From Geoglobus acetivorans (GTDB taxonomy: Archaea; Halobacteriota; Archaeoglobi; Archaeoglobales; Archaeoglobaceae), in contig NZ_CP009552.1 of NCBI RefSeq assembly GCF_000789255.1, positions 1,240,001 through 1,304,000 of the forward strand: a stretch of 64,000 nt of DNA, given 5' to 3'. Every line of letters begins with the position of its first letter. The stretch's first letter is position 1. Position numbers and translations under genes: made by a program. Below, one piece after another: positions 9,995-22,638 of this stretch. The notes beneath the pieces were generated by a model. The model ran no database searches, was not told the DNA's origin, and was given only the letters and a program-made list of their open reading frames with translations.

Positions 9995-10750
9995 ATGGAG
10001 ATAACAATTGATGAGGTCTTCGTTAACGCACTGAGAGACTACGGACTCACGACATACGAGGCGAGAGCATACTATGTGCTTCTCTCCGTTGGCGAGGCGA
10101 GTGCGGGAACGGTGGCAAAGCTGTCCGCAATCCCCCAGCAGCGCATTTACGATACGCTTTCATCACTCGAACGAAAGGGATTCATACAGGTAAGACACAC
10201 CAATCCCAAGAAGTATGCACCACTCAACGTTCGCAGGGCGCTTGTTAATCGTATCAGACAGCTCAGTGCAGAGTTCAGCGCCAGAATGGAGGAGCTGAGG
10301 GACCGAATCAGCGAGATTGAAGAGCTTGCTCCAAAAGTTCAGAGTGATTCAGGCGGCTCCCACGTGTGGGTGGTTGAGGGTGAGGAGGCGATTGTTGCCA
10401 GAATTCTCGAAATGATTCAGAGTGCAGAAAAATGTGTAAAACTTGTGGGCGAAAGACCCCTATTCACGCTGAAGTGCCGGGAGATACTGAAGAGATACCT
10501 CCCGGAGGGTGTGAAACTCTACGCACTCGGAACGTTCGAGCAGGTCTGCAGGGAGGAGATTCTTGCTCTTGGCGGAGAAATCAGGGAAATCGAATCATAC
10601 AGCAACTACACGCTTATAGTCGACGACTCAAAACTGCTGATGGTCTATTTTGATGATGGGGGAGTTCCCCATGGGCTGTATACTGAGAACGAGGGCATAG
10701 TTCATCCGCACATCCACCTCTTCAACCTGCTCTGGGAACACACCGGATGA
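9995..10750 (+). CDS. TrmB-family transcriptional regulator
   Basis: A 251-residue TrmB-type regulator. The N-terminal winged helix (YGLTTYEARAYYVLLSVGEA, then IPQQRIYDTLSSLERKGFI) is followed by a coiled-coil helix (about 85-110) and a C-terminal sensor domain resembling the phospholipase-D-like TrmB effector domain. The long sugar-binding extension of TrmB proper is absent. It ends the YeiH-Usp operon and is the likely reader of the tandem CACCA-N8-TGGTG operator at 8090-8127, giving an autoregulated transport unit. The effector is unknown. Confidence 0.85.
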   Translation: MEITIDEVFVNALRDYGLTTYEARAYYVLLSVGEASAGTVAKLSAIPQQRIYDTLSSLERKGFIQVRHTNPKKYAPLNVRRALVNRIRQLSAEFSARMEELRDRISEIEELAPKVQSDSGGSHVWVVEGEEAIVARILEMIQSAEKCVKLVGERPLFTLKCREILKRYLPEGVKLYALGTFEQVCREEILALGGEIREIESYSNYTLIVDDSKLLMVYFDDGGVPHGLYTENEGIVHPHIHLFNLLWEHTG

Positions 10751-10840
10751 AGCCCCTTCAGCAAACTCAAATTTTCCGGCTCCATTGTGGAAAAGTCTGT
10801 ATTGTTTTCCGGACGGGCGGCATAACGGCAAGAAATGAGC

Positions 10841-10864
10841 CATAACTAAACAAAGTTCAGTAAT
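10841..10864 (+). promoter_or_regulatory. Surface-island promoter motif, copy 1
   Basis: CATAACTAAA (10841-10850) followed by GTTCAGTAAT (10855-10864). Both decamers recur in the island: the first at 12153-12162, the second at 19411-19420 and inverted (TTACTGAAC) at 13466-13474. It lies about 65-90 nt upstream of the ATG at 10930, ahead of an AT-rich TATA-like stretch (AAATATAAACC, 10883-10893). The remaining 10751-10840 spacer shows nothing else I recognise. Confidence 0.45.
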
Positions 10865-10929
10865 AAAATTTCTTACATTTTCAAATATAAACCGTTTCAA
10901 TTCTATATTTATCCTTGAGGGGTGATTGT

Positions 10930-12147
10930 ATGGGAAAAACATACGTAAAAATCTTGTTTTCAGCAGTGCTGGTACTGGCACTCGTTTATGGTGCAGAAGC
11001 GATAAGCATAGGAATCTCTCCGTCATTCATTGACTTTAAAGACCTTCTTCGAGGGCAGGTTGTGGAGGGCAGGGCGAGGATATACAACACACAGGACAGC
11101 CCCGCTCACTTCAAAATAGAAACAGGTGAGTTTTCGGAATGGGTGGAGGTTCTGAACACAGCAGGAGAAGTGATTAATGAGATCGAGGTCCCACCCAGCG
11201 GATACCACGAGATAATCGTGAGATTGAAAATACCTGAAGATGCTTCCAACGGAAATTACAAAATCCCGGTGTTCTTCGTCTCCTCTTCTGAAGGCGGTAA
11301 AGTGGGTGTTGGGATGAAGGCTCCCCTTAATCTGGTATTCACAGTCACAGGAGAACAGAAAAAATCCGTGAAGCTTATGCTCTTCACGATAGAGGATACT
11401 GAAGTCGGAATTCCTGCAAGAATGGAGGTGGACATACTCAATAATGGAAACGTTGTTGCTGACCCTACTGTCGAGATAACAGTCTTCAATCCAGATGGCA
11501 TTGAGGTGTGGAGGAACCAGACGGCTGTGAAAATAAAACCCCAGGAAATAAAAGCTGCGAAAATAAGCTGGGACACTTCGAAGATTGCTGAGGGAACATA
11601 CACAGGCAGACTCAGATTGCTGATGGACGGGAAAGAAATCCTTACCGAGGAACTCAAGTTCAATGTTTTTGAAAAAGGAACACTTACGGCAAGAATGGAG
11701 ATTCTGAACATTTCCGTCGAGAAAGTAATCCAGCCAGGAAAAATGTCGAAAGTTGAACTGGGAGTGAAAAACACCGGCCAGATAGATACGGAAGTCAGAA
11801 TGAGGATCGAGATCTACAACGGTTCCGAGTTCATTGACCTGTCTGAAAGCGACCCGCTGTGGCTTGAAAAAGGACAAACCGGAATCCTGACAGCATATCT
11901 GAAAATAAGTGAACCGGGAAACTACACTCTCAAACCAGTCCTGTCATACGGGGGCAGAATAGCAAAACTGAGCGGCATAACTGTGGAAGTTACCAGTCAA
12001 ATGGTCAGACAGGAGAGTGCATCGAACAGCAGCGCTGGAAATGACGAAAACTCCAGAATTCCAGGGTTTGGCATCTATTCAGCAATGCTGATTGCTGGAA
12101 CCGTCCTTTTGCTTATGAAACTCAGGATGAAAGGAAAGAAACGATGA
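10930..12147 (+). CDS. Secreted Ig-like repeat protein with PGF-CTERM anchor
   Basis: A 405-residue exported protein. The N-terminal signal peptide (about residues 1-26, ending near AEA) is followed by three or four beta-sandwich segments of the NEW3/Ig-like kind. The C-terminus is a PGF-CTERM tripartite signal: Ser/Asn-rich stretch, IPGFGIYSAMLIAGTVLLL, then a basic tail, the mark of archaeosortase A processing and lipid anchoring. The start is ATG 10930, not the upstream TTG, because GAGGGGTGAT (10917-10926) is the ribosome site. It opens the surface island and shares the island promoter motif. It could be an anchor or chaperone-like partner for filament subunits; no enzymatic motif is seen. 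Confidence 0.75.
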   Translation: MGKTYVKILFSAVLVLALVYGAEAISIGISPSFIDFKDLLRGQVVEGRARIYNTQDSPAHFKIETGEFSEWVEVLNTAGEVINEIEVPPSGYHEIIVRLKIPEDASNGNYKIPVFFVSSSEGGKVGVGMKAPLNLVFTVTGEQKKSVKLMLFTIEDTEVGIPARMEVDILNNGNVVADPTVEITVFNPDGIEVWRNQTAVKIKPQEIKAAKISWDTSKIAEGTYTGRLRLLMDGKEILTEELKFNVFEKGTLTARMEILNISVEKVIQPGKMSKVELGVKNTGQIDTEVRMRIEIYNGSEFIDLSESDPLWLEKGQTGILTAYLKISEPGNYTLKPVLSYGGRIAKLSGITVEVTSQMVRQESASNSSAGNDENSRIPGFGIYSAMLIAGTVLLLMKLRMKGKKR

Positions 12148-12152
12148 GTTGT

Positions 12153-12254
12153 CATAACTAAATCCCTAATTTATCTTTATTAACCGGTGGCTTTAAACGC
12201 TTAATCTGCCAATAACCGATTTTCTAACGGCTTTATTCGGAAATTAACTAAGTA
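12153..12254 (+). promoter_or_regulatory. Surface-island promoter motifs, copies 2 and 3
   Basis: CATAACTAAA at 12153-12162 repeats the decamer at 10841-10850. AATTAACTAAGTA at 12242-12254 is identical over 13 nt to 14051-14063. Between them are TTTAAACGCTTAAT, which could be a TATA element, and two TAACCG-type words. The gene downstream (12299) has a strong AAAGGAGGTGA ribosome site. Confidence 0.5.
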
Positions 12255-12298
12255 TGATGAATTATCATTACAGATATGTGAAAAGGAGGTGAAAAAGC

Positions 12299-13423
12299 AT
12301 GAAAAAAAATATTTTGTTGCTTGCAGTGCTGGCAGTGAGCCTGATTGGCATTGGAACAGCAAACGCTATAGATGGATATTCCAGCCAGGAGAAAATAAGC
12401 GTTACAGTGGAAACAGATCCCCTTGGATCCCCGCCATGGATTAAGGCGAAGTGGGAACTCTGGCTTGATCCAAACACAGACGATGAGTTCATACTCACTG
12501 ACGCCGATCCAGCAAGGCTCGGCACCCAGGGAGACATCGTTCCAGGAGACGGCGCCACATTCTATTCGTTCGTAATAGTATCTGACCCCAACGGAATCGA
12601 GGACATATCGGATGGAAACGTGTATGTTGATGTGTACCACCCAACATGCGGATATGGAGATGGCAGCTTCAAATACCAGGTCCACGCAACTGAAATTAAG
12701 CTTGTTAGAGACCAGCTGGGAATTCCCGATCTGGACGCCCCTGTTTTCAAGGGATATTCAGTCAGAGAGCTTGTTGAATTAGGCGTTGCCACCGGATACT
12801 TCTCGTCTGAGGATGCAAGCGAATTGCTGGAAGAACTCCACCAGAATGAGGCAAGAATCTACGCCGCCGAGCTTTTCATCGATTACCATCAGGCCTACGG
12901 ATGGTACATGGTCAAGGCATGGGCAACAGACAACAACGGTGCCACATCTGAAAAGTTCACCAACTACTTTGAAGTTAGGCCAATGCTTGCCTATGAAACC
13001 GACTTCAACTCAGTCCACTTCACGAACGTGAAAGTGGGTTACAGAGCACAGGTCAGCGGAGACTACGACATGAACACATCTGACAGGCCCACAATAAGGA
13101 ATATCGGTAACACCCCGATAGCAGTATCTGCGTATGCATCTGACGCGACAAGCGCTACTGACCCGCCAAAGAAGTTCGAAGACGTCTTCGACATGAGGTT
13201 CCTTGATGAGGACCTGATGCTCCCATCATGGGAGTGGACCAAGTTCAGCAACCTGCTGTGGCCGTGCAACACAACAAAGATAGACTTCAGCCTGCACCTG
13301 CCCAACGGTGCTCCGGCTACCGACTATACGGGATACATACTGCTCGAATACCAGGCAGTCATAGTGCCTTGTGAGCCACTGGATGTCGTGAGCGATCCCG
13401 TGCAGGTTGTGCCACCTACGTGA
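12299..13423 (+). CDS. Secreted protein of unknown family (island structural candidate)
   Basis: A 374-residue exported protein that I do not recognise. The signal peptide is about residues 1-23 (MKKN, hydrophobic core, ending TANA). The mature part is beta-rich and acidic, contains four cysteines and a short helical insert (VRELVELGVATGYFSSEDAS), and has no C-terminal membrane anchor or sortase signal. It has the strongest ribosome site of the island (AAAGGAGGTGA, 8-9 nt before the ATG), its own promoter motif and a T-rich terminator after it. This looks like a separately transcribed, abundant product. I infer a structural or substrate-coating role beside the DUF1102 proteins; a binding protein is also possible. 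Confidence 0.65.
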   Translation: MKKNILLLAVLAVSLIGIGTANAIDGYSSQEKISVTVETDPLGSPPWIKAKWELWLDPNTDDEFILTDADPARLGTQGDIVPGDGATFYSFVIVSDPNGIEDISDGNVYVDVYHPTCGYGDGSFKYQVHATEIKLVRDQLGIPDLDAPVFKGYSVRELVELGVATGYFSSEDASELLEELHQNEARIYAAELFIDYHQAYGWYMVKAWATDNNGATSEKFTNYFEVRPMLAYETDFNSVHFTNVKVGYRAQVSGDYDMNTSDRPTIRNIGNTPIAVSAYASDATSATDPPKKFEDVFDMRFLDEDLMLPSWEWTKFSNLLWPCNTTKIDFSLHLPNGAPATDYTGYILLEYQAVIVPCEPLDVVSDPVQVVPPT

Positions 13424-13436
13424 TATTATAAGCCAT

Positions 13437-13468
13437 TAAAATTTTTTATTTTTGTTAATTTTTTGTTA
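13437..13468 (+). terminator. T-rich terminator after the 12299 gene
   Basis: Consecutive T-tracts (13442-13446, 13449-13453, 13459-13464) lie 14 nt after the stop. They insulate the large secreted protein from the next gene. Confidence 0.55.
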
Positions 13469-13487
13469 CTGAACATAGTTAAGTAAC
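13465..13487. promoter_or_regulatory. Inverted repeat GTTACT-N11-AGTAAC with island motif
   Basis: GTTACT (13465-13470) and AGTAAC (13482-13487) are perfect inverted repeats. The element contains TTACTGAAC, the reverse complement of the GTTCAGTAA seen at 10855, and TAGTTAAGTA, an 8-of-10 match to the TAACTAAGTA core at 12245 and 14054. It lies upstream of the membrane-bound HTH gene at 13540, so it may be its autoregulatory site. Confidence 0.45.
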
Positions 13488-13539
13488 AATAAAATAGTAT
13501 TAAATATGATAAATACCATAACCTATTCTGGTGGGGACT

Positions 13540-13983
13540 ATGAACAGTCTTACTTCGATAATATCCAATGAAAGGAGGAAACTCCTCCTGAGGTATCTCC
13601 TGCACAACAACGGTCGGGCAACCCTTGAAGATGTTATCACATATATCTGTGAAAAAGAAGGAGATCCCCAGAAAAGAAACAGAAAAAGCGTCTATATCAG
13701 CCTGAAGCAAACCCACATACCCAAGCTCGAAAGAGCCAGAATTGTATACTACGATAGATCAAGCAACATGCTGCACCTCGAAGAGAGGTATCTCAACGAC
13801 GTGAGGATGTACATCGAATTTGTTGAAGGTGGAGATATAAGCTGGAGCAGGTATTATCTCGTTCTCGGCAGCATATCTGCTCTGGGAAGCCTGCTGGTTA
13901 TGGATACTCTCGCAATTGTCATATCGATTGCTCTGGTAACAAGTTCTTTACTTCAGACAATGAAGGTCAGAAAAGTTTTCTAA
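13540..13983 (+). CDS. HTH protein with C-terminal membrane helices
   Basis: A 147-residue protein. The first ~90 residues are basic and predicted helical, with a winged-helix look (SIISNERRKLLLRYLLHNNG, then EDVITYICEKEG and KSVYISLKQTHIPKLERARI), similar to the DUF7344-type HTH found in archaeal surface-gene clusters. The C-terminus has two hydrophobic helices (about 103-120 and 121-140), so it should be a membrane-tethered DNA-binding protein. The start is ATG 13540 behind GGTGGGG (13530-13536). Its place between the large secreted protein and the DUF1102 genes suggests it senses envelope state and regulates the island. Function inferred. Confidence 0.65.
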   Translation: MNSLTSIISNERRKLLLRYLLHNNGRATLEDVITYICEKEGDPQKRNRKSVYISLKQTHIPKLERARIVYYDRSSNMLHLEERYLNDVRMYIEFVEGGDISWSRYYLVLGSISALGSLLVMDTLAIVISIALVTSSLLQTMKVRKVF

Positions 13984-14003
13984 TCACAGTTCAGAAACTT
14001 AAT

Positions 14004-14063
14004 CGGCGATTATCGTCGAATTAACCGGAAAGAAGGGAGGAGAATTCAGGAATTAACTAAGTA
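14004..14063 (+). promoter_or_regulatory. Promoter region of the DUF1102 operon with island motif, copy 4
   Basis: CGGCGATTATCGTCG (14004-14018) is a near-perfect 15-bp palindrome. Downstream, AATTAACTAAGTA (14051-14063) is identical to 12242-12254. The DUF1102 gene starts at 14111 behind GAGGTGA. These are the only recognisable elements in the 13984-14110 spacer. Confidence 0.45.
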
Positions 14064-14110
14064 ATTGTTCATCACAATTAATTCTAACAAAATGGTTGAG
14101 GTGAAGCAAA

Positions 14111-14626
14111 ATGTTCGAAAGGCTTGTGGGAGTCGTGCTCCTGATCGGAGCACTTGTGTTTGCCTTAGGGATTGGGGCAGATTTTGCCAGCTATGATGCC
14201 GACAGAAGCGTGCATGTTGCGGTCGTGGCTGACGATCAGGAACTAATCGATCTGGATCCCGGGCAGCCGTATGCGTACATAGGTAATGACGGAAAGCTGT
14301 ACATCGATATAAGCGACAACAACGAGAATTACCCTGACGGCGGGGGTCTTGGAATCAGTCCGGATGCAAAGTATTCGTTTGACTGCATGTTCAACGTTTC
14401 AAACCACCTGTGGGAGGAGAATGTAACAATAAACGTAACGATCACATCCAATAACGATCTGGTCAAGCTGTACACAAATGATCCGGATGAAGCAAGCACC
14501 TCCATCAACTTCAACGTTCCCCAGGGAGAAGAAGTCTGCGTTGGAATGAGCTTTGATGGAGACGGAAAATCACCAGGAGATAGCATAGAGGGGCAGCTCA
14601 CAATACATGCTGAACCTGCCGAGTAA
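14111..14626 (+). CDS. DUF1102-family secreted protein, paralogue 1
   Basis: A 171-residue protein with an N-terminal hydrophobic segment (about residues 4-22) followed by the block shared by all paralogues here: FASYDADR, VVADDQELIDL, QPYAYIGNDGKLYIDIS, then SNHLWEENVTINVT. It fits DUF1102, a family of small archaeal secreted proteins of unknown function. The mature chain is acidic and beta-rich, with two or three N-glycosylation sequons and no C-terminal anchor. It is the first gene of a run of five, followed after 14 nt by the next paralogue. I infer that it is a SipW-processed fibre subunit comparable to TasA or the archaeal bundling pilin AbpA. The homology to those is structural expectation, not shown here. 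Confidence 0.8.
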   Translation: MFERLVGVVLLIGALVFALGIGADFASYDADRSVHVAVVADDQELIDLDPGQPYAYIGNDGKLYIDISDNNENYPDGGGLGISPDAKYSFDCMFNVSNHLWEENVTINVTITSNNDLVKLYTNDPDEASTSINFNVPQGEEVCVGMSFDGDGKSPGDSIEGQLTIHAEPAE

Positions 14627-14640
14627 CGGGGTGCTGACCT

Positions 14641-15183
14641 ATGAACAAAATAATATACCTGGTGATGTTCTCCATCGCAATAGCACTTGTCTCAGGGCTG
14701 AGCGCAGATTTCAGAATGTACCATGCTGAAAGGAATTTCACAATAGCAATTGTAACAGATGACCAGGAACTCATCGACCTGACACCAAACCAGCCATACG
14801 CATTCATTGACAGCGACAATGGAGAACTCATAGTCAGGTTCGACGCAGAGAACGAGAATTACCCTGGGTACGGGAAGGGTGTAAGCCCTGACTCAAGATA
14901 CGTGTTTGACGATGTCTTCTGCGTCTCAAACGACCTGTGGGAAGAAAACATGACAATAGGCATGGATATTGATCTGTCCAGTGAACTTCAGGGAATCGTG
15001 AAGATATACTCGGATAAAAGTGACGAGGGCAACACTGATCCCGCCAACGCAACATCCAACCTCCACGTTGTGATAGAGAATGGAGATAAGGCGTGCATTG
15101 GGTTCGTCATAGATACCACCGGCATAAAAACGGGCGACTACACCGGAGAAATGACCATGCATGCGTATCCATATCAGGAATAA
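14641..15183 (+). CDS. DUF1102-family secreted protein, paralogue 2
   Basis: A 180-residue paralogue of the preceding gene: hydrophobic signal (about 3-20), then ADFRMYHAERNF, IVTDDQELIDL, NQPYAFIDSDNGELIVRFD and SNDLWEENMT. It diverges mainly after residue 110, where it has its own loop (KSDEGNTDPANATSN), and ends in a strand (GDYTGEMTMHAYPYQE) that mirrors the EGQLTIHAEPAE end of paralogue 1. The cysteine pair (VFCVSN and KACIGF) is at the same places as in paralogue 1 (DCMFNV and EVCVGM), so an internal disulfide is likely. It starts 14 nt after paralogue 1, within the same transcript. Confidence 0.8.
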   Translation: MNKIIYLVMFSIAIALVSGLSADFRMYHAERNFTIAIVTDDQELIDLTPNQPYAFIDSDNGELIVRFDAENENYPGYGKGVSPDSRYVFDDVFCVSNDLWEENMTIGMDIDLSSELQGIVKIYSDKSDEGNTDPANATSNLHVVIENGDKACIGFVIDTTGIKTGDYTGEMTMHAYPYQE

Positions 15184-15206
15184 CTTAATTTTTTGAGGTG
15201 TTTTCA

Positions 15207-15707
15207 ATGAAAACAGCGATAACAGTGGTCCTAATAATTTCATTTTTATTAATAACCGGGGTCAGCAGTCATTTCAAGGACTATACCGCAAACAGGGGTT
15301 TTCATGTCCAGGTTGTTGCGGATGATCAGGAGCTGCTCAGACTTGTTCCCAACCAGCCCTATGCATACATTGGGCAGGATGGGAAGCTGTACATAGATAT
15401 TTCACCGTCCCATCCCGAATATCCCGGATACGGGGCTGGATTGAGTCCTGACACGCTGTACGCATTTGATTGCATGTTCTACGTGAAGAACACACTGTGG
15501 GAGAACCAGACAGTTACATTCGTCGTGAATTCATCATCTCCCAGCGTGATGATGTACACCCCAACATCAGCAACAGCATATTCTCCAGAAACTGCCACGC
15601 AACACCTGATATTCCAGCTTGGATGGATGGAAGAGACCTGTGTCGGTTTTGTATTCGACATGAGGAACGGACAGATGGTGGGGGTGTCTCTCAATGCCAC
15701 AATCTAA
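15207..15707 (+). CDS. DUF1102-family secreted protein, paralogue 3
   Basis: A 166-residue paralogue: signal segment, SSHFKDYTANRGF, VVADDQELLRL, NQPYAYIGQDGKLYIDIS, GLSPDTLYAFDCMF. It shares the cysteine pair (DCMF and EETCVGF). The C-terminal strand is shortened (ends SLNATI), lacking the HAEP end of paralogues 1, 2 and 4. The start is ATG 15207, since GAGGTG (15195-15200) sits 6 nt before it; the GTG at 15198 is inside that site. Its last 14 nt overlap the start of paralogue 4, implying coupled translation. The DNA encoding QPYAYIGQDGKLYID is nearly identical to that in paralogue 4, so recent duplication or conversion is likely. Confidence 0.8.
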   Translation: MKTAITVVLIISFLLITGVSSHFKDYTANRGFHVQVVADDQELLRLVPNQPYAYIGQDGKLYIDISPSHPEYPGYGAGLSPDTLYAFDCMFYVKNTLWENQTVTFVVNSSSPSVMMYTPTSATAYSPETATQHLIFQLGWMEETCVGFVFDMRNGQMVGVSLNATI

Positions 15708-17262
15708 CCCTAAAAAGATCTGGACATTTGCAGGACTGCTGGTAACGCTCCTCATAGCATCAGCATACGTTATTGGTATAACGGCAACATTCACAGAATA
15801 CACTGCAAAGAGAAACTACAGCATTGCTGTTGTTTCTGATGATCAGGAACTGATAGACCTCAAACCCCTCCAGCCCTATGCATACATTGGGCAGGATGGG
15901 AAGCTGTACATAGACTTCAGCACGAACAACCCAAAATGGAATGAGGGAAAGGGAGAAGGTCTCAGTCCGGATAGCAAATACGCTTTTGACAGAGTATTTG
16001 AAATTTCAAACGACCTGTGGGATGGTGTCTGTATAAACGTAACCGTAACCTCAGAACCTGAAGAGATTAAAACATATATTGAGAATTATCTGAACGCATC
16101 TCAGAAAACCGTTTTGCAGATACTTCCCGGAGAGAGAAAGGAGGTCGGTCTCCTTATTGAATCAGAAGAGCTTGGAAGTATAGATGGCAGACTCAGAATC
16201 CATGCAGAACCGTGCAACGGTGCTGTGCCGACCCCAACGCCGTCTCCATCACCAACACCGGAAGAGACTCCTACCCCAACTCCAACACCGGTACCGCAGA
16301 ACTTTGAATGGAGGGTTGAACTTCCAGAAAGGGCTCCCAAGGGCGACATAGTGTTCATGTTCGACGTAACAGGCAGCATGCTGGAAGAGCTGAATCAGGC
16401 AAAGGTCAGTGCGATAGACCTCATGACAGACATACGACTTCTGATTCAGGATTCACGATTCGGTGTTGCGAGTCTTGCAGATTATCCGAAACTGTACCTC
16501 TACTCAGAAAACTACGGCTACGGATGGCCATACGGTAAAAATTACGGAGCACCCGGAGACTATCCGTGGAGAATGGATTCAGACCTGACCTACGACATAA
16601 ACGCTGCTGCAGGTGCAATTAACAATCTCGAGATCAAAAATGGCCTTGACGAACCTGAGCCGTACGCCTATGCTGTCCACAAGGCGATGAGTGAGATGAG
16701 CTGGAGAGATGACGCAAGGAAAATTCTGGTCATACTCGGAGATGCTCCGCCCCACAACATGCCAAACGGCCTGAGCGTTTTCGAAAACAACTATGGTGGG
16801 GATCCCGGGGACGACTGGCTCATGAACACTTCAGATGATGTTGACTATGTGAATGCAATTAACTCTGCAGACGCCTTCGGATTAACGATAATATCAATCT
16901 ACGCAGGCAGAGATGACGAGTTCAGCAACGATGCAAGAACGAACTTCATGTACATGGCCGACATGACCGACGGCGCATATGCTGAGCTGCAGGGAGACCT
17001 GAGCGCTTTACCGACAATTATTGAAAACAAGATAAAGGAAGTTGCGGAGCAGCCGATAGGTAACCTGACCCTAAGGGCCAGCGCTCCGCCGGGGTGGACT
17101 GTCACATGGACTCCTGACAAGTACACGAATGTGGCGTGGGGCAGCCAGGTTACGTTTTCAATTCAGATAACACCACCTGAGCCACACACTCCGCAAACAG
17201 TAACCATAGAACTGCTTGCAGATGACATTGTGATTGATACCATAGACATTCTGGTGTCATGA
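15694..17262 (+). CDS. DUF1102 - Pro/Thr linker - vWA fusion protein
   Basis: A 522-residue exported protein. Residues ~10-30 are a hydrophobic signal and ~35-172 a DUF1102 domain (DDQELIDLKPLQPYAYIGQD, SNDLWD). Residues ~178-201 are a Pro/Thr linker (repeated PTPTP and PSPSP), ~218-440 a von Willebrand A domain, and ~445-522 a beta-sandwich with no anchor. The vWA MIDAS is visible: DVTGSM (Asp224, Thr226, Ser228) and the later LGDAPPH aspartate, so metal-dependent ligand binding is plausible. It overlaps paralogue 3 by 14 nt. The fusion ties the filament-type domain to an adhesive module, suggesting a tip or cross-linking subunit. That role is inference. Confidence 0.82.
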   Translation: MPQSNPKKIWTFAGLLVTLLIASAYVIGITATFTEYTAKRNYSIAVVSDDQELIDLKPLQPYAYIGQDGKLYIDFSTNNPKWNEGKGEGLSPDSKYAFDRVFEISNDLWDGVCINVTVTSEPEEIKTYIENYLNASQKTVLQILPGERKEVGLLIESEELGSIDGRLRIHAEPCNGAVPTPTPSPSPTPEETPTPTPTPVPQNFEWRVELPERAPKGDIVFMFDVTGSMLEELNQAKVSAIDLMTDIRLLIQDSRFGVASLADYPKLYLYSENYGYGWPYGKNYGAPGDYPWRMDSDLTYDINAAAGAINNLEIKNGLDEPEPYAYAVHKAMSEMSWRDDARKILVILGDAPPHNMPNGLSVFENNYGGDPGDDWLMNTSDDVDYVNAINSADAFGLTIISIYAGRDDEFSNDARTNFMYMADMTDGAYAELQGDLSALPTIIENKIKEVAEQPIGNLTLRASAPPGWTVTWTPDKYTNVAWGSQVTFSIQITPPEPHTPQTVTIELLADDIVIDTIDILVS

Positions 17263-17306
17263 GGCGATCAAAATGCATTCCCATATTTTTTTGAAGGGTG
17301 AGTGAA

Positions 17307-18338
17307 ATGAAAACATACATTAATCTGCTGATACTCCTGACCCTCAGTTTCGGACTTCTTGTCGGGTCATCCAGTCATTTTAAAGAATTCGGTGCTGAAA
17401 GAAACTTTTCTGCAAATGTTACCGAATTGAATGAATCCCTGATCTCATGCCTGTGTCCCGAAAATAAAACCCGTTATCTGAAGTCAGGCGATACGTTCAC
17501 GCTCCTCAACATCACAAACAGGCTTGGAGAGGAAGCCACTTTTTATGTATATACTGACTCATCAAGTATCAATCACGAAAGTGAGTTTTTCCTCTCACCA
17601 AACGAGAGTGTGGAGGTTAAAGCAACATTTTACGGGCTGCCCGGTTTTTATTCGATAACAGCCAGGGTATCCGCAGACTGGGCGAACGGGTCCGCAGAGC
17701 TTTATGCATGCACGATCAACATTTCCAGTCCGAGACTCGAAATCGAAAAGCACCTTATGAGTGGAAAGGAGTCCGTAAAGGTTGGAGAAAAGGAATACTG
17801 GACTTTCAGAATCCTGGTGAAAAATCCAGGAACCTCAGACGATTTTGTGATAAAGGATACAGTACCTGCCGAACTCGAAATTCTTGAAATTAGCCCGTCA
17901 TCTGGCAGTTATGAAATACTGAGCAATGGCATGGGCAATTCCGGCTCTTCCACAATCACGTGGTATGTGCATCTGGAGAACGGAGATGTTGAGTGGCTCG
18001 ACGTAAACGTTACTACCAAGCAAAACCCAGCGTGCAGGCAGGAGTTCACATCTCCGGGAGCATACTGCCTGAATGACGGTGCAGAAGTTGTCGGATATGA
18101 TATCAGGAGCAATCCGATATGCATAACCGTGTACTCAGACTGTGATTCGGGGAAATGCGATGAGAAATGCTGTGATTCAGACGGGTGCTGCGATGAAGAC
18201 TGTGATGGTTACGATGGCTGCAATGACTCACACAACTGCCACAATGAAAGCTGCGATTCGGATGGATGCTGCTATGAAAATCACGAGTGTCAGGACGGGA
18301 ATGGCAGTAAAGAAAAACGCAGAGGGCATCGCTCATGA
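17307..18338 (+). CDS. DUF1102-like N-terminus, DUF11-like domain and Cys-rich tail
   Basis: A 343-residue exported protein. The signal and first mature residues (GSSSHFKEFGAERNFSANV) copy paralogues 1-4, but the DDQEL block is lost and replaced by an Ig-like domain. Residues ~145-270 form a DUF11-type repeat domain (IEKHLMSGKESVKVGEKEYW, VKNPGTSDDFVIKDTVP). The last ~70 residues hold about 14 cysteines with many Asp, Gly and His, including the word CDSDGCC twice, then a basic end (KEKRRGHRS). The tail could be disulfide-knotted or bind metal. The start is ATG 17307 behind AGGGTGAG. Its stop overlaps the signal peptidase ATG (ATGA), so the two are co-translated. Confidence 0.75.
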   Translation: MKTYINLLILLTLSFGLLVGSSSHFKEFGAERNFSANVTELNESLISCLCPENKTRYLKSGDTFTLLNITNRLGEEATFYVYTDSSSINHESEFFLSPNESVEVKATFYGLPGFYSITARVSADWANGSAELYACTINISSPRLEIEKHLMSGKESVKVGEKEYWTFRILVKNPGTSDDFVIKDTVPAELEILEISPSSGSYEILSNGMGNSGSSTITWYVHLENGDVEWLDVNVTTKQNPACRQEFTSPGAYCLNDGAEVVGYDIRSNPICITVYSDCDSGKCDEKCCDSDGCCDEDCDGYDGCNDSHNCHNESCDSDGCCYENHECQDGNGSKEKRRGHRS

Positions 18339-19399
18339 GGAGGGGCTTTGCACTCATAATAAGCATTTCAATCCTGATTTTTTCATTTTCCACTGTTCTC
18401 GGGGCCCTTATGAACAGACCGGTTTTCGTATCATACATAACCTCAAACAGCATGGAGCCAACACTGAGCAAAGGGGATCTGATTTTCATGACTCCCGTAT
18501 TTTTCAGCCTTGAGAAAGGAGACATAATCGTATTTTACTCGAATGGAGAATGGGTCTGTCACAGAATTTTTTCAGAGATTTCAGGAGGGTACATAACCAA
18601 AGGAGATAACAATATCGCCACCGATCAGCAGAGCGGAAAGGACCTCGTAAAAAAAGAGTTTATAGCAGGTAAGGTGATAACATTCCTCGACAGACCTGTT
18701 AAGATTCCTCAGGTTGGTAATTATGTGAGCGAGGTTTCCGAATTCGCATGGAAACACAAAATGCTGATGCTGACGCTGTTCTTCCTGGCAGGTTTGGCAG
18801 AAATTATGCTGGGAGGGGATAAAAAGCGCAGAAAAAAGAGGAGATCGAGAAAATCACTCAGGCTTCATTCAGACCAGGTTTTCCTGATCCTCACATTCAG
18901 CCTTCTTCTTCTGGCAACCTTCTCGGGAACAATATGGATTGGAAGTGAGAAGATACAGTACGGCGTAACATCAGCAGGCGGTTTGAGAGAGGAATGGGTG
19001 CTTCCCGGGCAGGTATTCCAGAGAAATCTGACGATCTCCAACAACCTGCATTATCCAATGATTTACGCTGTAAAGGGTGGAGAAAATTCCGCCATAGATG
19101 GGTATTTTGTCCTGTGGCCAGGGGAGTCAAAAACACTCACAGTAACCATAAAAGCTCCGATAGAGACGAGACTGTATGAGGAGAAAATAATTGTTGCAAA
19201 GTATTTTCCATTGCTGCCCCCTGAGATTGCCTACAGACTGTTCTCGATAAATGAGTATATCCCAGTACTCATGATTGATCTGGAAATACTCGCCTTACTG
19301 GCAGTTATCCACATGTTCGGTGGGGAGAAAAAGTATTACAGAATAAGGATCCAGCCAGGGTCCTTCAAACGAAAAATGAGGAACTTCCAGTTGAAATGA
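18335..19399 (+). CDS. SipW-like signal peptidase I with extra beta domain
   Basis: A 354-residue membrane peptidase. After an N-terminal helix (about 5-25) comes the catalytic Ser39 in TSNSMEPTLSKGD and His76 in EWVCHRI. The Ser-His pair is that of ER/archaeal and SipW-type enzymes, unlike the Ser-Lys of bacterial LepB. YITKGDNN supplies the conserved Asp. A second helix (about 143-160) and a very basic loop (KKRRKKRRSRK) precede a third helix, an extracytoplasmic beta-sandwich (about 205-300) and a final helix, an addition not found in plain signal peptidases. It directly follows the five DUF1102-type genes, so it most likely cleaves their signals. Confidence 0.87.
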   Translation: MRRGFALIISISILIFSFSTVLGALMNRPVFVSYITSNSMEPTLSKGDLIFMTPVFFSLEKGDIIVFYSNGEWVCHRIFSEISGGYITKGDNNIATDQQSGKDLVKKEFIAGKVITFLDRPVKIPQVGNYVSEVSEFAWKHKMLMLTLFFLAGLAEIMLGGDKKRRKKRRSRKSLRLHSDQVFLILTFSLLLLATFSGTIWIGSEKIQYGVTSAGGLREEWVLPGQVFQRNLTISNNLHYPMIYAVKGGENSAIDGYFVLWPGESKTLTVTIKAPIETRLYEEKIIVAKYFPLLPPEIAYRLFSINEYIPVLMIDLEILALLAVIHMFGGEKKYYRIRIQPGSFKRKMRNFQLK

Positions 19400-19410
19400 A
19401 ACTGAATTTT

Positions 19411-19453
19411 GTTCAGTAATTCAGTTTATTCATCATTAATAACGTTTCGAAAC
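19411..19453 (+). promoter_or_regulatory. Promoter region with GTTCAGTAAT and palindrome GTTTCGAAAC
   Basis: GTTCAGTAAT (19411-19420) repeats 10855-10864. GTTTCGAAAC (19444-19453) is a perfect 10-bp palindrome 20 nt before the ATG at 19474; nine of its bases recur at 20812-20820 before the second small winged-helix gene. TTTCGAAA also occurs inside unrelated genes, so the evidence is moderate. Confidence 0.35.
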
Positions 19454-19473
19454 AAGATGATGGGGGGAGGAGG

Positions 19474-20487
19474 ATGAAATACGCAAAAATTGTAACCGGA
19501 ATGTTTCTGGTTCTTGCAGTATTATCGGCCTACTTTCTGATAACGTACTGGGACATACCTGACGAGGAGAAAATGAAAAAGAAGGTGGGATCATTCGGGA
19601 TTGAAATCAGATTCGTTCCAGTTGCTGAGATAAACTCTCCAACCATAATATTCGGAGACAGAGATACAGTCAGAGGAGGAGATATATTCTTCGCAAACCT
19701 CGTTAAAAGATTCTGGTTCGAATACGAAATTAAAGCATCCCCAGGCATCACAGGAGACTATTCAATCAAAACATACCTGAAACCTTCAGAAAGCAAGGTA
19801 CTCCCCGAATGGAAAAGGGAATTACCCTACAGCTATGAGGGTGTGATCGAGAGCCAGCAGGCCGGAAAGCTCACCATAGACATTTTCTATGTCAGACAGC
19901 TCTGGGATAGAATCCAAAAGGAAACCGGACTCAACTACAACACTCCGATTGTCGAAATCGAAACCACAGTCAGCATAATAGGCGACATCAACGGGGAGAA
20001 AATCAAGAGAGAGTACAGGCACGTTTCCTCGATGACGGTGGGAAAGACGCTGAAGTTCGGCAATCTTGAGTTCAGCAAAAGCGAGAATATCGAAAGGGAT
20101 ATCGTCGTTCAGAATTACATTTCCACCCCATTCGGCAATGCAAAGCCATCCACCATCAAGACGGTGCTTGCGGCTGTTCTCATCACAAGCATATCGGCAA
20201 TAATTGTCCTGAACAGAAAATTACTGGCTAGGGGAATAAACTCGAAGATAAACAATGGCAGACTCGACAGGAGGTTCAGAAAGAAGTACGACTCTCTGAT
20301 AGTTCAGGCGAGAAAGATATCTCCGGCTGCAGGAAACACAGTGTTTCTCAGGAGCCTTGAAGACGTTGGAAAGATTGCCTACGAGCTTGAGTCCCCGATT
20401 ATAGAGACCGATGAGTACCTGGCCGTGATGTCGAACGGGAATGCATACATTTACAGAAAGGGTGACGGATATGAAAAAAAGAAGTGA
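19474..20487 (+). CDS. DUF5305-like membrane protein
   Basis: A 337-residue protein with an N-terminal membrane helix (about 5-25), a large extracytoplasmic beta-rich domain (~30-225), a second helix (~230-247, TVLAAVLITSISAIIVL) and a cytoplasmic tail of ~85 basic residues. The pattern and motifs such as FWFEYEIKASPGITGDYSI and YNTPIVEIETTVSIIGDI match DUF5305, a family I know beside SipW-type peptidases and DUF1102-like proteins in archaea. It starts behind a GGGGGGAGGAGG ribosome site. Its last 17 nt overlap the first small winged-helix gene. Likely an envelope-side assembly or sensing partner of the peptidase; no catalytic motif is seen. Confidence 0.7.
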   Translation: MKYAKIVTGMFLVLAVLSAYFLITYWDIPDEEKMKKKVGSFGIEIRFVPVAEINSPTIIFGDRDTVRGGDIFFANLVKRFWFEYEIKASPGITGDYSIKTYLKPSESKVLPEWKRELPYSYEGVIESQQAGKLTIDIFYVRQLWDRIQKETGLNYNTPIVEIETTVSIIGDINGEKIKREYRHVSSMTVGKTLKFGNLEFSKSENIERDIVVQNYISTPFGNAKPSTIKTVLAAVLITSISAIIVLNRKLLARGINSKINNGRLDRRFRKKYDSLIVQARKISPAAGNTVFLRSLEDVGKIAYELESPIIETDEYLAVMSNGNAYIYRKGDGYEKKK

Positions 20488-20707
20488 ACTTGAAATAATG
20501 ATCAGCATACTCGAAATTGCACGGGATGAAGTTCTGAAAACCAGAATAGTTTACGGTTCAAACCTCAATTTCAAGATCGCAACAAGATACATTGACCGTC
20601 TTTCGGAAATGGAGCTCATAATGAAATACCGGAAGGAAGGAAAGACATACTACAAAACCACTGAGAAAGGTTTGAAATTCATAAGAAAATACAAGGAAAT
20701 GTTCTGA
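20471..20707 (+). CDS. Small winged-helix DNA-binding protein
   Basis: A 78-residue basic protein of the archaeal HTH_45-like winged-helix type. KTRIVYGSNLNFKIATRYI forms the helix-turn-helix, followed by a wing and TYYKTTEKGLKFIRKYKEM. I start it at ATG 20471, behind GGTGA (20461-20465), instead of the upstream in-frame codon, which lies inside the preceding gene. It overlaps the DUF5305-like gene by 17 nt, so it is co-expressed with it. It has a close relative 145 nt downstream. The pair may regulate the surface island; this is inferred from position only. Confidence 0.8.
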   Translation: MKKRSELEIMISILEIARDEVLKTRIVYGSNLNFKIATRYIDRLSEMELIMKYRKEGKTYYKTTEKGLKFIRKYKEMF

Positions 20708-20811
20708 ATTCGAATAAAAGGTATTTCACGGGTTTTTCACTTATTGCGGTAATTATGATGAGTTAGCAAAATTATTAATCATAGTAAAATGAAAAGAAAA
20801 TTATCGAAGAT

Positions 20812-20820
20812 GTTTCGAAA
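20812..20820. promoter_or_regulatory. GTTTCGAAA half of the 19444 palindrome
   Basis: GTTTCGAAA lies 32 nt before the ATG at 20853 and matches the left nine bases of GTTTCGAAAC at 19444-19453. An AT-rich TATA-like stretch (TATATC, AATAATAT) follows. It may be an autoregulatory site; low certainty. Confidence 0.3.
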
Positions 20821-20852
20821 TATATCTTCTAAAATAATATAAGGTGAATACA

Positions 20853-21128
20853 ATGCGCCGTACGAGATTCGACATAGTGGTGGATATAATCTGCACGTTA
20901 ATGAATGGAGGTGCAAACAAGACCAGGATAGTGTATAATGCCAACCTGAACTTCCATCTCGTCGAGAAATATCTGAAATACCTGAAAGATAAAGGATTAA
21001 TTTCAGAAAAGCAGGTTAACGGAAAAACACTCTATTTTCCCACAGAAAAGGGTGTTGAACTCGTCCAGATATACCGAAGGCTTTCAGAAGAAGATTTTAT
21101 AGATGGAAAAATATCGACATTCAGGTAA
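20853..21128 (+). CDS. Small winged-helix DNA-binding protein, paralogue
   Basis: A 91-residue relative of the 20471 gene: NKTRIVYNANLNFHLVEKYL is the HTH, followed by KDKGLISEKQVNGKTLYFPTEKGVELVQIY. ATG 20853 is preceded by AAGGTGA (20841-20847), preferred over GTG 20844. It has its own promoter and ends three nt before the convergent deacylase gene. Two near-identical HTH cores (TRIVYxxNLNF) in adjacent genes suggest recognition of related sites, perhaps as heterodimers. Confidence 0.8.
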   Translation: MRRTRFDIVVDIICTLMNGGANKTRIVYNANLNFHLVEKYLKYLKDKGLISEKQVNGKTLYFPTEKGVELVQIYRRLSEEDFIDGKISTFR

Positions 21129-21130
21129 CG

Positions 21131-21583
21131 CTACTTCCTGATTCTCGCAACTGCCGTGCATTCCCGAACAATGTCCCGGGGGCGAATATGGAGCAAATGT
21201 CTTTCGTCGCCTCCCCCGCCATATACGCGCTCCATCTCCAGAACCCCCTCATCAAGGAGAATTCTGCAGTTATGTCCAATAGGAGGTACTCCGCCAGCCC
21301 GAAATCCGGTTAGCCTTGGGACCTCATCTTTACCCGCAATCCTGACCGGGACTCCAAGGATCCGATGCACGCGCTCAAGGTCCACCGACGAGACGCCATC
21401 AACAACTGCCACAACAGGTTCATCTCCAGCAACAAGCACAATGGACTTTACAATCTGCCTCCTGCTGCACCCAAGCGCCTCTGCAGCCTCTTTTACGGTT
21501 GAAGCTTTTCCCACCTCAACTATCTCTGCATCAATGCCCTTACTCATGACGTATTCTCTGAGCCAGTCCGATGAGGGAGGCAT
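21131..21583 (-). CDS. YbaK/ProX-type aminoacyl-tRNA deacylase
   Basis: A 150-residue YbaK-fold protein that in this family removes mischarged amino acids from tRNA (Cys-tRNA(Pro) by YbaK, Ala-tRNA(Pro) by ProX). The conserved lysine in RRQIVKSIVL (about residue 46), the GGVPPIGH motif (about 96-103) and the Asp-rich VVDGVSSVDLERV stretch are present. Full length for the family. It stands convergent to the winged-helix gene and upstream of no obvious partner. The exact misacylated substrate cannot be told from sequence. Confidence 0.88.
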   Translation of the reverse strand: MPPSSDWLREYVMSKGIDAEIVEVGKASTVKEAAEALGCSRRQIVKSIVLVAGDEPVVAVVDGVSSVDLERVHRILGVPVRIAGKDEVPRLTGFRAGGVPPIGHNCRILLDEGVLEMERVYGGGGDERHLLHIRPRDIVRECTAVARIRK

Positions 21584-21633
21584 GGCATAAACCCTGTTTT
21601 GCTATACCGTAAGGATACGGCCAAAAATTAAAA

Positions 21634-22638
21634 TTATTCGGTGTTTATTCCCCTGAGCCACGGCATCATTTTCCTGAGTTCCTTCCCAACCTCCTCAATG
21701 GGGTGGTTCTTTTCCATTTCAAGGAGTCTGGAATAGCTCGGTCTTCCTGCCATGTTCTCGAGAATCCATTCCCTTGCGAACTCACCACTCTGAATCTCCC
21801 TGAGGATCTTTCTCATTTCTTCCTTCACGGATTCGTTAATTATTCTCCTGCCCCTCGTCATACCTCCGTACTTTGCCGTATCGCTGACGGAATACCACAT
21901 TGCATATATTCCACCCTCATAGATCAGGTCCACAATAAGCTTCAGCTCGTGGAGGGCTTCAAAATAAGCCACCTCAGGCTGATATCCTGCCTCAACCATC
22001 GTTTCCCAGGTCGCCTTGATCAGCTCTGCAACACCACCACACAGATCCACCTGCTCTCCAAAGAGATCAGTCTCTGTCTCCTCCCTGAAGGTTGTCTCAA
22101 TCACCCCGGCCCTCGTGCACCCAATGGCCTTCGCATAAGCTAAAGCGAGATCAAGCGCCTTTCCGCTGTAATCCTGGTGAACAGCAACGAGCGCCGGAAC
22201 TCCCTTGCCCTCCTGATACATCCTTCTCACAATATGCCCGGGGCTTTTCGGAGCAACCATTGTGACATCAACATAGCTTGGCGGGATTATCTGCTGGTAG
22301 TGAATGTTGAAGCCGTGTGCAAACATGAGCATGTTTCCCTCCTCGAGCGCCTCATGGACATATTTTTTGTAAACAGCAGGCTGTACGGTATCGGGGATGA
22401 GCATCATGATAACGTCTGCTTCTTCGCTGGCTTTTTCAACTGTCTTAACCACAAGGCCATCTTTCTCTGCCACTTTCCAGCTTTTACTTCCCTCATAAAG
22501 CCCTACCACAACATCCACGCCGCTCTCTTTCAGGTTTAAAGCATGGGCATGCCCCTGGCTGCCATAACCGATAACTGCCACCTTCTTTCCCTTCAAAAGC
22601 TCCAGATCTGCATCTCCATCATAGTAAATCTTTGCCAT
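21634..22638 (-). CDS. ilvC: Ketol-acid reductoisomerase
   Basis: Converts acetolactate or acetohydroxybutyrate to dihydroxy-isovalerate or -methylvalerate with NAD(P)H and Mg2+, in valine and isoleucine synthesis. The Rossmann motif [19 protein letters not shown] is near residue 21. The catalytic, Mg-binding residues lie in [15 protein letters not shown] and the [17 protein letters not shown] helix. A class I, 334-residue enzyme. The frame remains open upstream, but I start at ATG 22638 ([11 protein letters not shown], the usual family N-terminus). An earlier start would overlap moaC. It follows moaC by 28 nt on the same strand. No other ilv or leu genes are nearby, so it stands alone. Confidence 0.95.

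Follow-up and report, generated by a model that had tools for sequence, protein, structure and literature searches.

Modular pilins that carry a von Willebrand A (vWA) domain are already known. The nearest parallel in action that we met is PilB of Streptococcus sanguinis, presented in the available part of its report as a type IV pilin with a C-terminal vWA domain and MIDAS that serves as an adhesin, most probably at the pilus tip (PMC8179133); the binding of PilB to fibronectin and fibrinogen is described there as independent of metal in vitro (PMC8179133). TasA, AbpA and Tafi are secreted beta-sandwich subunits (PMC9674648). TasA has a SipW-type signal with Phe at P2' (PMC10269814) and a peptidase gene in its operon (PMC9674648), and the accessible portions of these sources mention no vWA head on any of the three. 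Integrin-beta-like sequences have also been noted in bacteria: a Trichodesmium sequence is cited as homologous to integrin beta over more than 450 residues, with no filament domain mentioned in the text available (PMC3192720).

Here we describe D4, a gene of Geoglobus acetivorans that lies within a stretch of 64,000 nucleotides (the window; contig NZ_CP009552.1, positions 1,240,001 to 1,304,000) and is a variant of the modular vWA pilins, with a DUF1102 subunit and an integrin-beta-type head. As in PilB, a putative filament subunit is joined to a C-terminal vWA module. PilB, however, belongs to the type IV pilins, bears a class III signal and has a vWA domain of the vWF kind, whereas D4 combines a DUF1102 beta-protein with an integrin-beta-like vWA domain and a hybrid-like sandwich; its Pfam matches include DUF1102 and no pilin family. 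D4 and its three short paralogues (D1-D3) are proposed to be secreted beta-sandwich subunits like TasA, AbpA and Tafi, to which their ties are structural only, and the DUF1102 domain and vWA head would set D4 apart from the Trichodesmium protein and from these three, respectively. On balance, we regard D4 as probably a minor subunit with an adhesin head, built into a DUF1102 filament that is SipW-processed and resembles those of TasA, AbpA and Tafi. The papers available to a literature search contained no mention of DUF1102, and no report of a DUF1102-vWA fusion appeared among the entries listed.

The DUF1102 Island and the Fusion Gene

D4 is the fourth DUF1102 gene in a tightly spaced, same-strand row that runs from D1 to a DUF5305 gene and is headed by a DUF7344 gene:

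13531..13983, + strand: DUF7344 protein heading the cluster, probably of winged-helix type (PF24035, E 2.4e-18; synteny)
14111..14626, + strand: D1, short DUF1102 paralogue (PF06510, E 1.1e-43)
14641..15183, + strand: D2, short DUF1102 paralogue (PF06510, E 6.7e-43; TafF E 3.8e-5, below cut-off)
15198..15707, + strand: D3, short DUF1102 paralogue, its end overlapping D4 by 14 bases (PF06510, E 2.2e-34)
15694..17262, + strand: D4, the fusion gene
17298..18338, + strand: DUF11 protein with a SipW-type N-terminus (SSSHFKEFGAERNF) like that of the DUF1102 proteins and a Cys-rich tail (TafC weak, E 0.013)
18335..19399, + strand: signal peptidase I of archaeal/SipW type, candidate processing enzyme (TIGR02228, 70.4 bits against 51.85)
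19474..20487, + strand: DUF5305 protein, a neighbour of related DUF1102 clusters (PF17231, E 1e-13; synteny)

The island thus has both marks of a SipW-processed system, namely an archaeal-type signal peptidase in the operon and an aromatic residue at P2'; by the NCBIfam model NF046067, the peptidase is not SipW itself (34.4 bits, cut-off 190). Of the island genes scanned with Pfam, none was recognisable as an integrin alpha subunit, and no RNA family scored above its gathering score at positions 10000-22000 of the window. The DUF11 protein (17298-18338) ends in a tail in which Cys, Asp and Gly are very abundant (CDSDGCC-like) and which is possibly metal-binding, and in related islands the peptidase stands ahead of the counterpart of this protein. 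A further DUF1102 cluster, comprising two short copies, is present in the G. acetivorans genome. Its signal peptidase gene occupies two frames (L072:7709-8747) against one in a second genome of the genus, G025 (L146:8601-9638), and is therefore either frameshifted or misassembled in G. acetivorans.

The preliminary description had placed at 15694-17262 a complete DUF1102 domain fused through a Pro/Thr linker to a vWA domain with a DxTxS motif and a C-terminal beta-sandwich. This layout was confirmed, with the vWA domain refined to the integrin-beta type: the reading frame is exact and intact, begins with ATG and encodes 522 residues, arranged as follows:

15694..15786, + strand: signal peptide (residues 1-31) with a SipW-type site, GITA/TF, and Phe at P2' (hydrophobic N-terminus; cleavage predicted)
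15787..16215, + strand: DUF1102 filament-type domain (residues 32-174; Pfam match 46-172)
16216..16296, + strand: Pro/Thr/Ser/Glu linker (residues 175-201; sequence, and low pLDDT at 181-195)
16297..16332, + strand: beta-strand preceding the vWA domain (residues 202-213), putative N-terminal half of a hybrid-like sandwich (model strand 202-209)
16333..17055, + strand: integrin-beta-type vWA (I-like) domain (residues 214-454; PF00362, invariance, fold match)
16483..16569, + strand: Tyr/Gly-rich loop spanning residues 264-292, in the position of the integrin specificity-determining loop (sequence, alignments)
17056..17262, + strand: C-terminal beta-sandwich (residues 455-522) and stop (Pfam NEW3), putative counterpart of the hybrid domain's C-terminal half in integrins

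In Pfam, DUF1102 (PF06510) matches residues 46-172 with E 3.7e-31 and 108.6 bits (gathering score 22.2), covering profile positions 1-137 of 141 and placing D4 in the family. The Integrin_beta VWA family (PF00362) matches residues 218-359 with 29.2 bits (cut-off 24.8), and NPCBM_assoc/NEW3 matches residues 451-505 with 30.5 bits (cut-off 24.4). The DxTxS motif is D224-V-T226-G-S228. In contrast to integrin beta chains, D4 gave no Pfam match to PSI, EGF, transmembrane or cytoplasmic tail regions, and the protein stops after the sandwich. Since D4 has no clear C-terminal membrane anchor (over a stretch of 19 residues the last strand averages 1.55 in hydropathy, just below the anchor threshold of 1.6), the DUF1102 domain is its likeliest means of attachment.

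The fusion is not a product of chance or of assembly joining, because G025 carries a syntenic copy of 522 residues that is 95% identical. The two genes differ by 103.5 synonymous and 24.5 nonsynonymous changes, and dN/dS is low throughout (0.055 for the whole gene, 0.060 for the DUF1102 part, 0.046 for the vWA domain and 0.036 for the sandwich, with 0.010-0.071 in six gap-free comparable neighbours), which argues that purifying selection maintains both halves. Import of the vWA part was also considered, and its third-position GC gives no sign of foreign composition (0.55, against 0.44 in the DUF1102 part and 0.49-0.58 in 18 other window genes).

The DUF1102 Domain as a Probable Filament Subunit

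The DUF1102 domain of D4 is 48% identical to D1, and in a tree of 28 DUF1102 rows D4 stands alone on a long branch (1.52). Derivation of D4 from one of D1-D3 was considered and set aside, the position of the D4 branch being unsettled in that tree. Cysteines 113 and 174 of D4 have the placement seen in second subunits from several other clusters, which differs from that in D1-D3, and Phe occupies the P2' column in 25 of the 28 rows. D4 retains the N-terminal strand and the SipW-type site, and thus looks able to donate a strand; a FimH-type tip subunit only accepts one. Because the strand is kept, D4 could be either a donor cap or a lateral subunit.

The retained strand and complete domain would in fact permit any position in the chain, so that D4 might decorate the filament lengthwise, its head binding the cell's own surface (the S-layer, glycans or filaments nearby). 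It would then cross-link bundles or matrix, in contrast to a tip adhesin directed at foreign surfaces. We hold this arrangement to be possible though improbable. The bundling of TasA and AbpA filaments, reported in the available part of PMC9674648, would suit a cross-linker, as would the presence of the vWA family in large archaeal proteins that are probably surface-located, but the DUF1102 domain of D4 has diverged far from D1-D3.

A model of D1 built from the four window paralogues (pLDDT 76.3) best matches Ig-like folds, including an MSP domain, AbpA, FimA and the Natrinema Tafi pilin. These matches are tied at Z 7.2-7.5 (AbpA 7ueg_A, Z 7.4, rmsd 3.2, 111 aligned; Tafi 9p0a_C, Z 7.2, rmsd 3.5, 115 aligned), values that may reflect merely a shared Ig-like arrangement. 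The NCBIfam Taf cut-offs were not reached (D1 scored 17.9 against 190 for TafA, and D2 scored 23 against 420 for TafF), D4 had no match to NCBIfam TafA, TafC, TafE or TafF at E<=1, and DUF1102 had no significant sequence match to TasA, AbpA or Tafi in the PDB. With the Taf links weak and the folds tied, the filament reading draws mostly on gene context, on the SipW-type signal and peptidase, and on the analogy with TasA. Such middling fold matches would also be consistent with a DUF1102 domain that does not polymerise, D4 then being a secreted monomeric binding protein. This we consider very unlikely, as a filament better accounts for four paralogues in tandem beside a SipW-like peptidase and for the weak Taf fimbrial matches.

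An Integrin-Beta-Type Head

The vWA half of D4 has matches in 37 of the 392 genomes of the phylum (D4 and the G025 copy included), 12 of them at E <=3.1e-27 and several others in the sandwich only, and at 47 loci in named genomes of archaea and bacteria. The family was examined through two profiles: A2, with 12 vWA rows, 10 of them from other genomes, out of the 37 genomes with matches, and A5, with 30 rows made up of D4 and 29 of the 47 loci. The remaining 18 loci were left out of A5, and of the A4 alignment used for modelling, as partial, truncated, weak or near-copies. When the A5 profile was compared with the PDB, all 60 matches listed (of 61 at E<=0.1) were integrin beta chains, one of them integrin-beta-2-like, and the best was beta3 (1tye_B, E 8.1e-15, aligned over 101-420). 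Within beta3 101-420 lie the I-like domain and the greater part of the hybrid domain's C-terminal half. The 12-row profile likewise gave integrin beta chains in 57 of 57 matches at E<=0.01. A plain vWA/vWF reading was dropped because the matches listed were all integrin beta chains and included no other vWA protein. The best integrin match of the D4 sequence on its own was beta6, at E 0.017 only, so the integrin claim is carried by the family context.

Among the 30 rows of A5, matches at E<=0.001 were found to Integrin_beta (15 rows), VWA_4 (12), NPCBM_assoc (10), VWA (6) and vWA_SIBA-E (6). The last of these recalls the Dictyostelium Sib proteins; SibA is presented in the available text as a eukaryotic transmembrane receptor (PMC12686525), and D4 itself has no vWA_SIBA-E match at E<=1. 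In the tree of vWA rows, D4 falls in an archaeal part on a branch of length 2.53, which makes that placement, and with it the source of its vWA domain, unsure.

The structure of D4 was predicted with AlphaFold2 from the A4 alignment of 33 rows (window proteins and named loci), in which the vWA rows begin at D4 residues 53-55 (L122 at 1) and the D2 row ends at 506. The model has a mean pLDDT of 81.1 and a pTM of 0.64. In ten-residue blocks, pLDDT is 53-92 over residues 41-180 of the DUF1102 part and 83-98 in the vWA-sandwich half, with dips at 271-280 (52) and 351-370 (62-69). The best 50 Foldseek matches listed were all integrin entries, from E 3.7e-21, with modest scores (TM 0.36-0.45 by model length, rmsd 6.8-9.4). 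By VIA-align, model residues 197-522 superpose on beta3 93-430 (3ze2_D) with Z 22.6 and rmsd 3.0 over 283 residues, and the I-like domain alone superposes on beta6 (5ffg_B) with Z 21.2 and rmsd 2.6 over 206; most other integrin rows have rmsd values of 5-8. Identity between D4 and the integrins in the structural alignments listed is 16-20%.

Together, the profile searches and the predicted model support assignment of the vWA half to a prokaryotic integrin-beta-like family. In the model and alignments, the I-like domain appears as an insertion within a hybrid domain; the counterpart of the integrin hybrid domain would be made up of the beta-sandwich and the strand preceding the vWA domain. The aligned range opens upstream of that strand, at model residue 197 and beta3 93, and the family profile aligns from beta3 101. 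Many relatives have a stretch like SPxxxxATLxPGES ahead of the kept strand (window 16297-16332); in D4 this first strand-like stretch is replaced by the linker, which may leave one edge of the sandwich open.

The angle between the vWA domain and the sandwich in residues 197-522 of the model (m918a8ad4ad50) resembles that of an integrin headpiece entry labelled open (6avu, rmsd 3.8 over 289) more than those of entries labelled closed (3nid, 5.4 over 286; 3nif, 5.5 over 287), although domain angles in a predicted model deserve caution. The beta3 structure 3ze2 is, we assume, also an open form.

The Putative Metal Site

Like the integrin beta headpiece, D4 has the MIDAS positions, the PE motif and an Asp at the place of beta3 residue 158. 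The beta3 MIDAS residues D119, S121, S123, E220 and D251, of which the first four can be counted in the A5 profile-beta3 alignment, correspond to D224, T226, S228, E322 and D350 of D4. All five positions thus appear to be kept with suitable residues, the DxTxS part having been noted in the preliminary description, and would provide for a metal ion and ligand. D224, T226, S228, D263, P321 and D350 do not vary across the 30 rows; position 322 holds Glu in 21 rows and Gln in 9, and position 319 holds Asp in 27 and Asn in 3. For the neighbouring second integrin metal site (SyMBS), presumably formed in beta3 by D158, N215, D217, P219 and E220, D4 keeps D263, D319, P321 and E322. A complete SyMBS was not found in D4, the position of N215 being Gly317, which is Gly in all 30 rows. 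The residues beta3 D126/D127 are replaced by Glu231/Glu232.

Distribution of the Fusion

DUF1102 was found in 25 of 59 Archaeoglobi genomes (69 matches) and in none of 14 control genomes. Two of the 69 matches lie on frames of 532 codons, namely D4 and the G025 copy, and the other 67 on frames of 123-229 codons, the shortest being cut by the end of a contig in G028. Integrin_beta (PF00362) likewise occurs in D4 and the G025 copy only, that is, in 2 of the 59 Archaeoglobi genomes and none of the 14 controls. The fusion is therefore rare, with 2 of 59 genomes, both of the same genus, and a wide spread within Archaeoglobi is ruled out. The search for the same fusion in other Archaeoglobi that the preliminary description had suggested thus yielded one further genome, within the genus. 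In G028, another genome of the genus, the DUF1102 frame at C69 16205-16516 (the end of L076) runs off its contig, and a truncated fusion is possible there.

The preliminary description had also proposed a division of labour in which the short paralogues polymerise and the fusion protein caps the filament or adheres. The preponderance of short frames and the long branch of D4 make such a division plausible; polymerisation of DUF1102 and a tip position for D4 are steps that we infer.

Outside Archaeoglobi, DUF1102 matches are weak (best E 5.6e-10), bringing the total for the phylum to 58 of 392 genomes. From 12 loci in the genomes outside Archaeoglobi, 16 DUF1102 frames were read, 10 of which were scanned with Pfam. 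None of the 10 had a vWA domain at E<=0.01, and two, from other families of the phylum, had a right-handed C-terminal beta-helix (L096:4041-6302 and L088:8366-10039, the latter with a DUF1102 score of 21.9, just below the cut-off of 22.2), so that DUF1102-type domains bear C-terminal cargo of other kinds too. Across 146 sources searched with the profiles (the window and 145 loci), only D4 and the G025 copy had both domains on one frame. Outside the phylum, the fusion was sought by a genome-contig scan with the fusion protein and by the vWA-half search that gave the 47 loci. The contig scan returned 213 pattern-matching stretches and no confirmed relatives; it also missed known DUF1102 and vWA relatives, and is thus weak evidence on the fusion elsewhere.

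A fusion in genomes lacking the rest of the island was also looked for, and in both genomes where it was found it lies within the island, which G025 has entire and in the same order. In G020, G031 and G024, an orthologous island comprises CARDB, o12299, DUF7344, D1, D2, D3, peptidase and DUF5305 genes, with the peptidase directly after D3 and the fusion gene absent. Since three orthologous islands do without it, D4 is not needed for the filament. This bears on the notion of D4 as a nucleator or base anchor, comparable with TapA or Saci_0405, in which D4 would be a donor-only cap and the vWA head would hold the filament in the S-layer. Donor-strand cap or nucleating proteins have been proposed for threads and for TasA (PMC9715654; PMC9674648), and TadG-type vWA proteins for pilus anchors (PMC4858521), as far as the available parts of these sources go. 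The islands without D4 nevertheless keep D1-D3 and the peptidase and would need another nucleator, and we regard such a role as unlikely.

Mineral binding, which the preliminary description had put forward as a test of the vWA domain, is not supported where iron oxides are concerned. Curled appendages of Geoglobus ahangari bind Fe(III) oxides, according to the available part of PMC4600277, yet its genome (G026) has no DUF1102 match, which weakens the case for iron-oxide adhesion through DUF1102 as a general Geoglobus trait.

Proposed Mechanism and Significance

For D4 as a minor adhesin-bearing subunit, the following sequence of events may be envisaged. D4 would be exported by Sec, and its signal would be removed by the SipW-like peptidase encoded two genes downstream. 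The DUF1102 domain would then enter the D1-D3 filament, probably through the kind of N-terminal strand exchange that TasA, AbpA and Tafi use, and the Pro/Thr linker would project a head in which a hybrid-like beta-sandwich houses an I-like domain of the integrin-beta type. This head may bind an acidic group of its ligand via Mg2+ or Mn2+ at the MIDAS, possibly with a swing of the sandwich.

A more far-reaching idea, which we regard as doubtful, is that D4 forms part of a donor-strand filament in which the hybrid-like sandwich swings out under pull, so that a metal-dependent bond grows stronger with force and needs no alpha subunit. On this view, the pairing of I-like and hybrid domains began as an adhesion device of ancient prokaryotes, and integrins were assembled from it later.

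Through D4, a family of archaeal domains that has hardly been studied, and that probably belongs to filaments, is tied genetically to an adhesion head, and the function of DUF1102 thereby becomes testable through one recombinant protein. The coupled I-like/hybrid arrangement, which is the basis of switching in integrin beta, is indicated in diverse archaea and bacteria, and here it is indicated as grafted onto a filament-type subunit. A filament of a hyperthermophilic archaeon may thus carry a metal-dependent sticky head.
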